A stretch of DNA of 64,000 nt from Terriglobia bacterium (GTDB taxonomy: Bacteria; Acidobacteriota; Terriglobia; Terriglobales; Acidobacteriaceae), in contig JAIQFF010000028.1 in the NCBI GenBank assembly GCA_020073395.1, positions 1-64,000 on the forward strand. Reading direction: 5' to 3'. The notes beneath the pieces were generated by a model that ran no database searches, was not told the DNA's origin, and saw nothing but the letters and a program-made list of their open reading frames with translations. The position numbers and the translations under genes are program-made. Of this stretch, positions 1,214 to 28,950 are shown in pieces (positions within the stretch are counted from its first letter, which is position 1; each line of letters begins with the position of its first letter).

Positions 1214-1262
1214 GTAGCCGAACTTCGCTCGGCTTGACCGGGTCAGAGACCCGGTCCCACAT
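1214..1262. repeat. Family C palindromic repeat, inverted copy
   Basis: Reverse-complement copy of the family C element: its hairpins are gccgaacttcgctcggc and accgggtcagagacccggt, followed by cccacat. It faces the copy at 1122-1190. Its outer 20 bases form the last codons and the stop codon of the permease gene on the minus strand (stop at 1243-1245). Confidence 0.7.
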
Positions 1263-25906: not shown

Positions 25907-27166
25907 ATGCCTGGCTCGCGACGCGAAGTCTCGGAGCTATTTCCTGGAGTGCAACAGGAAGTGGCCCATCTTTGTTCACTGCCCGAGATTGGCTCGGCTT
26001 TTACCTGGCTTCGGGCTCAGGAGCCGCAGTTTGTGCACTGGCAGTTGGAGCTGGCGCGCATTCCTGCGCCTCCGTTTGGCGAGAGCGTCCGGGCCCAATG
26101 GTTGGCCGACAAGTTTTGCGAGCTCGGCCTGGAATCGGTCTACACCGATGAAGTGGGCAACGTTTTCGGCACGCATGCCGGCTACGGACACGGCCACGTC
26201 TCGCTTAGCGCGCACCTGGACACGGTATTTCCCGCTGGCACGCCGCTGAACATCCGGCAACAGGGCAGCCGCTTGTACGGCCCGGGCGTTTCGGACAACG
26301 GCGCGGGCGTAACCGCCATGTTGGCCATCGTGGCGGCGCTGCGCGCGTTGAGCATCCGGCACGCTTTGCCCTTTCTGTTTATCGGCAACGTAGGGGAAGA
26401 AGGCGAAGGCGACCTGCGGGGCATGCGTCACATTTTCTCCCAACCACGCTGGAAGGACCAGATCCACTACAGCCTGGTGCTGGACGGCGCGGGCGCGGAC
26501 ACCATCGTGGCTGAAGCCCTGGGCAGCCGCCGTTTCGAGGTGATTGTGCGCGGCCAGGGCGGACATTCCTGGAGCGATTTCGGCGCGCCCAACCCCATCG
26601 TGGTGTTGTCACGCGCGATCCATGCCTTTGCCCAAACTCCGGTGCCGGCATTGCCCAAGACGACCTTCAACGTGGGCGTGATTCGCGGCGGGACTTCGGT
26701 GAATTCGATTCCGGAGTCGGCCAGTATGCGGGTGGACATCCGTTCTACGTCGATGGCGGAAATGGAGCGCCTGGAGCGCGCTCTGCGCCAGGGGCTAGAC
26801 AAGGCGGTGGAAGAGGAAACCCGGGCCACGGAGGCCCGCACGGCTTCACGGCGGCGGCCCTTCGGGCTGAGTTATGAAGTGGTTGTGATCGGCAATCGTC
26901 CCGCGGGCGAGCTGTATCCCAATGCTCGCATCCTGCAGGTGATTCGGGCAGTGGACGCGCAGTTGGGCAACGCGGCACAAGTGCAACGCGCTTCCACCGA
27001 TGCCAATATCCCGCTGTCATTGGGACTCGAGGCCATTGCGATCGGCGGCGGCGGCGCCGGCGGCGGGGCGCACACTTTGCAGGAATGGTTTGACTGCAAT
27101 GGGCGCGAGCTTGGTCTCAAGCGCATTCTGTTGACTCTGCTGGGGCTGGCGGGAGTCGCTCTATGA
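25907..27166 (+). CDS. M20/M28-type metallopeptidase (PepT-like)
   Basis: A 419-residue di-zinc peptidase. Metal ligands can be followed: His103 and Asp105 in SAHLDTVF, Asp130 in GPGVSDNGAG (bridging), the Glu pair in GNVGEEGEGD near 164, an Asp in VLDGAG and a C-terminal His in GGGAHTLQEW. The lid dimerisation domain lies around VIVRGQGGHSWSDFGAPNP. No signal peptide is seen, so it is probably cytoplasmic and acts on di- or tripeptides or N-acyl amino acids. Its TGA stop overlaps the start of the amidohydrolase gene (ATGA). Confidence 0.87.
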   Translation: MPGSRREVSELFPGVQQEVAHLCSLPEIGSAFTWLRAQEPQFVHWQLELARIPAPPFGESVRAQWLADKFCELGLESVYTDEVGNVFGTHAGYGHGHVSLSAHLDTVFPAGTPLNIRQQGSRLYGPGVSDNGAGVTAMLAIVAALRALSIRHALPFLFIGNVGEEGEGDLRGMRHIFSQPRWKDQIHYSLVLDGAGADTIVAEALGSRRFEVIVRGQGGHSWSDFGAPNPIVVLSRAIHAFAQTPVPALPKTTFNVGVIRGGTSVNSIPESASMRVDIRSTSMAEMERLERALRQGLDKAVEEETRATEARTASRRRPFGLSYEVVVIGNRPAGELYPNARILQVIRAVDAQLGNAAQVQRASTDANIPLSLGLEAIAIGGGGAGGGAHTLQEWFDCNGRELGLKRILLTLLGLAGVAL

Positions 27167-28950
27167 AAATGACAATCTTGGTCTTCCTAGTGGCTATAGT
27201 TGCAATCGCGATGACTGGGATCAGGGCGCAGAATCTACCCGCACAACCCAAGGCCGACATCATCTTTCTCAATGGGAACATCTACACCGGGGTGGTGGAT
27301 GCGTCATCGTTCCACGCCATAGAGCGTGCCGAGGCGATAGCCGTGAGTGATGGCCGGGTTGAAGCCGTGGGGCGCGGCGACCAGATCGTGAAGCTGAAGG
27401 GACCGTCCACCGAAGTGATCGATCTCGGCGGGCATTTCGTCATGCCCGGTTTCAACGATGCGCATATGCACCTGGCCGATGCCGGTTTTCAGCGGCTGAC
27501 GGTTGACCTGATGGGAGTGAAGTCACTGACTGAGTTTCGCGAACGCATTCGGGCACGCGTGCAAGACGCAGGGCCGGGCGAGTGGATCGTGGGCAGCGGT
27601 TGGGACCAGACTTCGTGGCCGGTGAAAGAACTCCCCACCCGCTGGGACATCGATGAAGTGACCACTGACCACCCCGTATTTCTCGAACGCGTGGATGGCC
27701 ACATCGCGGTGGCCAACACCCGCGCCCTGCAACTGGCCAGTATTACGGTTGCCAGCAAGGACCCCGCGGGCGGCAAGATTGATCGTGATACAACCGGTCA
27801 AGCCACCGGCATTTTGCGCGAAACCGCGCGCCAAGCCGTGCGCGCCGTCATTCCCAGGCCTAATCATGACAAACGCCGGCAAGCCATTGAAACCGGATTG
27901 CAGGATCTGGCCCGTAGCGGCATCACTTCCGCGCAGGACAATTCCGACTCCGGCGACTCGAAGCTCTCCTGGGACGATTTCCAGATCTTCGAAGAAATTG
28001 AGCGTGAAGGCAAGCTCACGGCGCGGATCACGGAATGGCTGCCCTTCAACGATCCATTGCCCACCTTGCAGGAGCATCGCTCGGCCCATCCCCAGTCGGA
28101 CAATTGGCTGCACACCGGTATGCTCAAGGCCTACATGGACGGATCCCTGGGTTCGCGCACGGCCGCCTTGCTCGCGCCCTATGCCGATGACTCCACCAAT
28201 TCCGGACTACCGCAGTATGAGCAGGATGAGCTTACTCGATTGACGAAAGAACGCGTCAACGCCGGATTCCAGATCGGCTTCCACGCCATCGGCGACAAGG
28301 GGGTGCAGATGGCGCTGGACGCCTTCTCCGCCGCCATCACAGACCGTGTGGGGACGGACCGTGTGGGGACGGGTCTCAGACCCGTCCAGGCCGAGCAAAG
28401 CTCGGCTAAGGCTACACCAAACGCAGCCCCCGACTTCCGCCTGCGTATCGAGCATGCCCAAGTCACCAATCCTCTGCAAGTGGCAAAGTTCAAACAGTTC
28501 AAGGTGATCGCCTCCATGCAGCCCAACCATCTGCTCACCGACATGAATTGGGCCGAGGCCCGGCTGGGGCCGAAGCGCGCGGCGCACTCCTATGCCTGGG
28601 TGGAATTCATGAAGAAGGGAGTGACCCTGGCTTTCGGGACTGACTATCCCGTCGAACCAGTCACGCCCTTCCGTGGCCTCTACGCCGCCGTGACCCGCAA
28701 GAGCGAAGACGGCAAAAAGAAATACTATCCCGAGCAAAAGCTGAACATGGAACAGGCCATCGCCGCCTACACCACCGGTTCGGCCTTCGCCGAATTTGCC
28801 GAGAAGGACAAAGGCACGCTGGCCCCCGGCATGCTCGCCGACCTGGTAGTGCTGGACATGGACATCACTTCCGTGGCCCCGGAAAAAGTTCTGCGAGCCA
28901 AAGTGTTGCGTACGGTTGTGGGCGGGAAGACGGTTTACCAGGCCAAATAG
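27163..28950 (+). CDS. Exported YtcJ-like amidohydrolase with in-frame repeat insertion
   Basis: A 595-residue amidohydrolase with signal peptide (ILVFLVAIVAIAMTGIRAQN). The metal-binding HxH-type motif appears as NDAHMHLADAG, with HAIGDKGVQMALDAF and RIEHAQV later and FGTDYPVEPVTPFRGLYA near the end. YtcJ-type proteins hydrolyse amide bonds of unknown substrates. Residues 394-418 (from a 15-bp tandem duplication giving DRVGTDRVGT, through QAEQSSAKA) are encoded by a family C repeat and do not look like the enzyme family. It is 4 nt overlapped with the M20 peptidase gene, indicating one operon and coupled translation. Confidence 0.85.
   Translation: MKMTILVFLVAIVAIAMTGIRAQNLPAQPKADIIFLNGNIYTGVVDASSFHAIERAEAIAVSDGRVEAVGRGDQIVKLKGPSTEVIDLGGHFVMPGFNDAHMHLADAGFQRLTVDLMGVKSLTEFRERIRARVQDAGPGEWIVGSGWDQTSWPVKELPTRWDIDEVTTDHPVFLERVDGHIAVANTRALQLASITVASKDPAGGKIDRDTTGQATGILRETARQAVRAVIPRPNHDKRRQAIETGLQDLARSGITSAQDNSDSGDSKLSWDDFQIFEEIEREGKLTARITEWLPFNDPLPTLQEHRSAHPQSDNWLHTGMLKAYMDGSLGSRTAALLAPYADDSTNSGLPQYEQDELTRLTKERVNAGFQIGFHAIGDKGVQMALDAFSAAITDRVGTDRVGTGLRPVQAEQSSAKATPNAAPDFRLRIEHAQVTNPLQVAKFKQFKVIASMQPNHLLTDMNWAEARLGPKRAAHSYAWVEFMKKGVTLAFGTDYPVEPVTPFRGLYAAVTRKSEDGKKKYYPEQKLNMEQAIAAYTTGSAFAEFAEKDKGTLAPGMLADLVVLDMDITSVAPEKVLRAKVLRTVVGGKTVYQAK
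28346..28417. repeat. Family C palindromic repeat inside a coding sequence
   Basis: It holds gacgggtctcagacccgtc and gccgagcaaagctcggc hairpins with outer gtgtgg and ctacac ends. The left edge is tandemly duplicated: gaccgtgtggggacg at 28342-28356 and 28357-28371. The element keeps the amidohydrolase frame open. Confidence 0.85.

Follow-up and report, generated by a model that had tools for sequence, protein, structure and literature searches.

A REP-type palindromic element carried in frame by an amidohydrolase gene of Terriglobales

An amidohydrolase gene and the element within it

The window, i.e., the whole stretch of 64,000 nucleotides analyzed here, belongs to a 5.5-Mb genome (G000) and contains an amidohydrolase gene with a palindromic repeat in its coding sequence. 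A preliminary description, made from the letters of this DNA, had read the repeat as a family C element at 28346-28417 that, together with a 15-bp tandem duplication of its left end, encodes residues 394-418 and leaves the frame open. We compared the gene with its counterparts in G001, a genome of the same genus, and in G061 (isolate AA140), a third species; the named carriers of the insert are metagenome-assembled genomes. The locus comprises the following features.

27163..28950, + strand: intact host gene of a YtcJ-type metal-dependent amidohydrolase (Amidohydro_3), 595 aa (Pfam, dN/dS, invariant residues)
28339-28353 / 28354-28368, + strand: 15-bp tandem reiteration of the element's left end (14/15 bases match)
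28361..28407, + strand: core of the REP-type element (family C), residues 400-415, frame VGTGLRPVQAEQSSA (genome matches, family alignment)
28363..28366, + strand: GTGG foot that abuts hairpin 1 directly, as in GTAG/GTGG REPs (sequence compared with the definition given in PMC6006769)
28367..28387, + strand: hairpin 1, GGACGGGT / CTCAG loop / ACCCGTCC (fold; pairing retained in other copies with compensatory changes)
28389..28407, + strand: hairpin 2, GGCCGAGC / AAA loop / GCTCGGCT (fold; compensatory changes in copies L010, L013 and L015)
28408..28417, + strand: AAGGCTACAC, possible remnant of the right terminus (CTACAC able to pair with GTGTGG)

The repeat lies in frame and the gene stays open throughout; the duplication is present, and residues 394-418 correspond exactly to 28342-28416. 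What is conserved, however, is shorter than the element first outlined: the family C alignment ends soon after 28407 (family listing and alignment), and AAGGCTACAC is conserved neither across family C nor in the G001 ortholog. The 47-bp core, GTGTGGGGACGGGTCTCAGACCCGTCCAGGCCGAGCAAAGCTCGGCT, consists of GTGTGG, hairpin 1, a single A and hairpin 2, and contains no stop codon in any of the six frames. Folded as single-stranded RNA, 28339-28420 reaches -42.3 kcal/mol (z = -4.1). The segment 28348-28368 also occurs in the G001 ortholog and is absent from that of G061. An Rfam scan of the window gave no match, and a known Rfam RNA was rejected as the identity of the element.

Homologs and the inserted loop

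The protein matches PF07969 over residues 84-592 (E 5e-113) and retains all invariant His and Asp residues of the family (H101, H103, H374, H431 and D494; 45 sequences compared), and this full-length domain with its invariant residues places it among the YtcJ-type amidohydrolases. With the insert excluded, dN/dS is 0.075 between G000 and G001 and about 0.07 against G061; by these sequence comparisons the gene is under purifying selection. Insertion of a REP within an enzyme might often be expected to be harmful, and the gene could be imagined as a decaying pseudogene whose frame is still open by chance. This is extremely improbable given a dN/dS of 0.07 outside the insert across three species, the full-length Pfam match, the intact invariant residues and a length difference between G000 and G001 of two codons, in frame; pseudogene status was rejected on the dN/dS value.

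To place the insert among homologs, we measured the spacer between the HAIGD and R[IV]EH motifs in 77 readable homolog rows, a few of them near-duplicates. The spacer comprises 24-36 residues without the repeat in 71 of the 77, 47 of these having exactly 33. The carriers have 49 (the window's gene), 47 (G001) and 38 (G061) residues, a net gain over the usual 33 of 16, 14 and 5. A homolog gap of about 24-25 residues had been predicted; relatives do lack the residues, but between HAIGD and RIEH the net difference is +16 (49 vs the usual 33), and a clean insertion of 24-25 residues is rejected. Homologs with the same residues and no repeat, the other observation named in advance as counter-evidence beside a pseudogene, were not encountered.

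The G001 and G061 orthologs are 87% and 73% identical to the window's gene, and in each of these genes the element occupies the same codon and frame (...VGTDRVGTGLRPVQAEQSSA..., ...VGTDRVGTGLRPVQAERSSA..., ...YVGTGVSPVQAERSSA...). The carriers group in one clade (SH-aLRT 91), and in the nearest sisters of this clade the 33-residue spacer is empty. Ancestral loop residues, of the EAEKEAREKKVKAANGG type, are unrecognizable in every carrier and must therefore have been replaced, or lost after an insertion; net gains of only 16, 14 and 5 residues likewise mean that the element replaced most of the older loop. Because most of that loop is gone, the original insertion junction is blurred. Unrelated in-frame expansions of 10 or more residues occur in the same loop in other lineages (L042, L110, L114), which makes the loop a general hot spot of length change.

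An AlphaFold model built from 45 homologs has a mean pLDDT of 88.2 over the whole amidohydrolase. Apart from residues 18-24, which belong to the N-terminal leader, values below 50 are confined to residues 398-421. This segment is situated between helix 378-397 and strand 427-430 and constitutes a barrel loop; the solved homolog 3IGH aligns on both sides, with 2 residues between the matched parts. As far as the model goes, it shows that the element, which is presumably translated, encodes a disordered surface loop of the barrel.

The repeat family, its transposases and other in-frame copies

A search of the window's own genome gave 44 family C matches (best non-self E 4.5e-17), and the 12-mer GTGTGGGGACGG has 27 exact matches vs 0 for a reversed control. 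Since these counts are joined by the fold z-score given above, we regard the family as real rather than a product of chance. Further copies were found in G001, G005, G028, G024 and G061. REPs are defined in PMC6006769 by GTAG or GTGG 0-2 nt 5' of a hairpin with a 7-20 bp stem and a 2-5 nt loop; family C is dispersed in many copies, and its GTGG abuts an 8-bp stem with a 5-nt loop. Its hairpins vary by compensatory changes, with stems such as GGCGAG/CTCGCC, GGTCGAG/CTCGACT and GGACGAG/CTCGTCT and a T-A to C-G exchange in hairpin 1. A scripted count of stem pairs is descriptive only, its register having been picked by best fit, which favors pairing. RNAalifold on a MAFFT alignment of the copies gave almost no covariation, because loop lengths differ and affect gap placement.

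The left-end reiteration recurs at 15-18 bp spacing in L014 (182-245), L018 (1484-1565), L066 (1889-1918) and L013. Since L014 and L018 have 17-bp reiterations, and a reiterated left end, GTGTGGGGATTGATTGTGTGG, occurs at one end of the transposase unit on contig C90 described below, duplications like the 15-bp one in the gene recur among these elements. Variant forms of the repeat were also noted. At 1121-1262 of the window, a family-C-like copy has its hairpin 1 interrupted by another short repeat of the CCTGTCCTGAGCGGAGTCGAAGGGG type and adjoins an inverted hybrid copy. In G061, a double-foot form, GTGTGG-hairpin-A-GGCGGGTC...GACCCGCC-TCCACAC, is common (L203, L206, L208, L212, L214-L216), whereas the G000 form has a single foot. 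Some family C copies have a neighbor from a second repeat family, GGACGGGCGTCCC...GGGACGCCCGTCCTCCAT, which is also found flanking another Y1_Tnp gene (L064 on G000:C110, L007, L012).

Among the eight Y1_Tnp matches in the window's own genome, the gene on C90 is a REP-associated tyrosine transposase (RAYT; NCBIfam NF047646, 95.5 bits, cut-off 80). It is bracketed by 52-nt inverted ends, GTGTGGGACCGGGTCTCCGACCCGGTCAGGCGGCCTGAAAGGCCGCTGGGTT, with the same layout as family C (GTGTGG-GACCGGGTCTCCGACCCGGTC-A-GGCGGCCTGAAAGGCCGC-TGGGTT). G001 has an equivalent locus (L243), and a RAYT gene of G005 (C37) begins some 10 nt beyond GTGTGG-GGACGGGGCTCTGCCCCGTCC-A-AGCCGCGGCTGAGCCGCGGCT, which includes a hairpin 1 of the family C type, so that RAYTs flanked by elements of the same architecture occur in G000, G001 and G005. 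Exact family C copies flank no RAYT in G000. The hybrid copy at 1217-1262(-) of the window joins hairpin 1 of the C90 RAYT end to hairpin 2 of family C, and it is from shared architecture and such hybrids that we assign a putative cognate RAYT to the family.

The preliminary description had suggested looking for other genes that hold the element in frame. We scanned the ORFs spanning retrievable copies from six genomes and annotated them with Pfam and NCBIfam. In-frame elements were found in UvrC (G000, G061, G001), at the same place in SelD of G001 and G061, and, in single genomes, in MetH (G001), DusB (G000), RecG (G028) and LipB (G061). An ABC exporter of G000 carries one in a linker, with a degraded counterpart in G024, while CPSase-like and FAD-oxidase-like ORFs of G061 read the element in other frames. 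Frame VGTGLRPVQAEQSSA is used in 8 of 10 distinct events and a sense frame in all 10, a bias with a chance probability of 2e-5 for six equal frames or 0.003 for the three sense frames only, in a small sample chosen by ORF length to which antisense ORFs, most without families, were also submitted. A reasonable guess is that this frame is favored for its hydrophilic peptide without Cys or Trp. In the uvrC ORF of the window's genome (L174, G000:C38:229-2397, minus strand), the last third mismatches its relatives in the frame of the element, which points to a frameshift or an assembly error near residue 450.

Origin, retention and relation to known repeats

The shared position could also have arisen through separate gains in the three species at a hot spot in the loop, or through gene conversion from other family copies that overwrote the one in the gene. 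The GGGCGTCTCGCCC variant of hairpin 1 in the G061 gene occurs in other G061 copies, the TCTCnGA form of the G000 and G001 genes is common among the copies of those two genomes, and the loop has undergone other lineage-specific length changes. Codon, frame and lost ancestral residues are nevertheless identical in all three carriers, which form one clade, and the 15-bp reiteration is common to G000 and G001; we consider independent gain or conversion unlikely and favor a single ancestral insertion.

A related question is whether the copy is kept for a DNA or RNA hairpin that acts in protein binding, mRNA decay or translation control, beyond mere tolerance. Between G000 and G001, third positions of codons 396-417 are identical in 22 of 22 cases, the highest window of the gene, against 62% outside (Fisher p = 0.006 for codons 398-419); elsewhere in the gene, however, windows come as high as 21/22. 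The core is identical at 45/47 positions against 83% for the gene (p = 0.009), and the UvrC copies of G000 and G061 match at 44/46 in a locus of 77% identity by blastn; a scripted flank value of 0.67 was set aside, since it is diluted by one ORF that departs from the family's frame close to its end. Stem pairs in G061 are preserved by compensatory change, whereas the UvrC copy of G001 differs at several positions. Orthologous intergenic copies keep their hairpins as well, so conservation is not specific to the amidohydrolase, and homogenization between copies would look alike. The identity pattern fits hairpin selection, inter-copy homogenization and chance alike, and we give retention for a hairpin function a minor though real chance. 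More doubtful still is the idea that the family serves as a reusable linker module, with frame VGTGLRPVQAEQSSA strongly preferred and the hairpin under selection in coding sequence; if true, one 47-bp stretch would have filled two roles through long periods of evolution, those of a structured nucleic-acid element and of a peptide linker.

Our preferred account builds on the established repeat family, its in-frame position, shared ancestry and recurrence, the purifying selection on the host gene and the RAYTs bracketed by elements of the same architecture. The insert is a non-autonomous REP-type element in which a GTGTGG foot is followed by an 8-bp hairpin 1, a single base and a hairpin 2 of 7-8 bp. 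Its relatives form the inverted ends of units of RAYT, a REP-associated Y1 HuH transposase, and it most likely spread by insertion catalyzed by such a RAYT acting on single-stranded DNA. Three or more Terriglobales species would have inherited a copy that their common ancestor acquired within the alpha-to-beta loop that follows the HAIGD motif, in a stop-free frame and with displacement of most of the old loop. The insertion was probably close to neutral and persisted, since the gene is predicted to yield a full-length enzyme whose disordered surface loop has lengthened; insertions of this kind also occurred in UvrC, SelD, MetH, DusB, RecG, LipB and the ABC exporter. Taken as a whole, we regard this account as highly probable.

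Di Nocera 2013 (PMC3733652) described intragenic GTAG and CGTC REPs from many bacteria, among them cases from Opitutus terrae, Thauera and Pseudomonas and repair genes including uvrA, uvrB and recB; such repeats were suggested to occupy flexible loops or linkers. In-frame REPs occur even within RAYT genes (PMC6006769). Family C resembles GTAG/GTGG REPs and their RAYT (TnpA-REP) partners, as far as these reports describe them, in the GTGG foot set directly against a hairpin (8-bp stem, 5-nt loop), its dozens of copies, the inverted elements of like architecture around RAYT genes and the in-frame copies in linkers and loops, DNA-repair genes included. It differs in combining two different tandem hairpins with a single GTGTGG foot, in its occurrence in Terriglobales and in retention traced through orthologs of three species. 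'TIRtrons' of Koribacter versatilis and others (PMC3733652) also have Y1 transposase terminal inverted repeats that occur solo, and Koribacter likewise belongs to the Acidobacteriota, but their GGGGWSAS motif is not exactly present in family C. No family C match was found in G032, a candidate Koribacter, and identity with Koribacter TIRs is unsupported.

A likeness to the palindromic coding elements of Rickettsia had been proposed. RPEs (Ogata 2000, reviewed in PMC2229807) are Rickettsia-specific palindromes of 105-146 bp, one of which was reported to be translated within an active enzyme whose substrate affinity is altered. The comparison holds for behavior: both are palindromic, repeated and open in frame, and both lie in frame at tolerant sites of conserved proteins that, on sequence evidence, stay functional. 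It fails for sequence and size, the Terriglobales core being 47 bp, and family C has a putative RAYT link, of which the text of PMC2229807 available to us states none for RPEs. The element thus appears to behave like an RPE, yet is filed as a GTGG-type REP. The lineage is indeed a different one, but given the published cases the class itself is not new. Our searches of the open-access literature yielded no description of REPs within genes of Acidobacteriota, and the available text of PMC3733652 and PMC6006769 lists no such case; measured against these sources, family C is a new Terriglobales family of REPs that has a habit of lying in coding sequence. The initial observation is confirmed and its interpretation supported.

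With these results, the known range of coding palindromic repeats comes to include uncultured soil Acidobacteriota, and the comparative evidence is unusually good: an insertion common to three species, sisters with an empty loop, a structural model and a candidate transposase. With recurrent insertion in one preferred frame across housekeeping proteins, it becomes testable whether proteins are shaped by such repeats or simply tolerate them.
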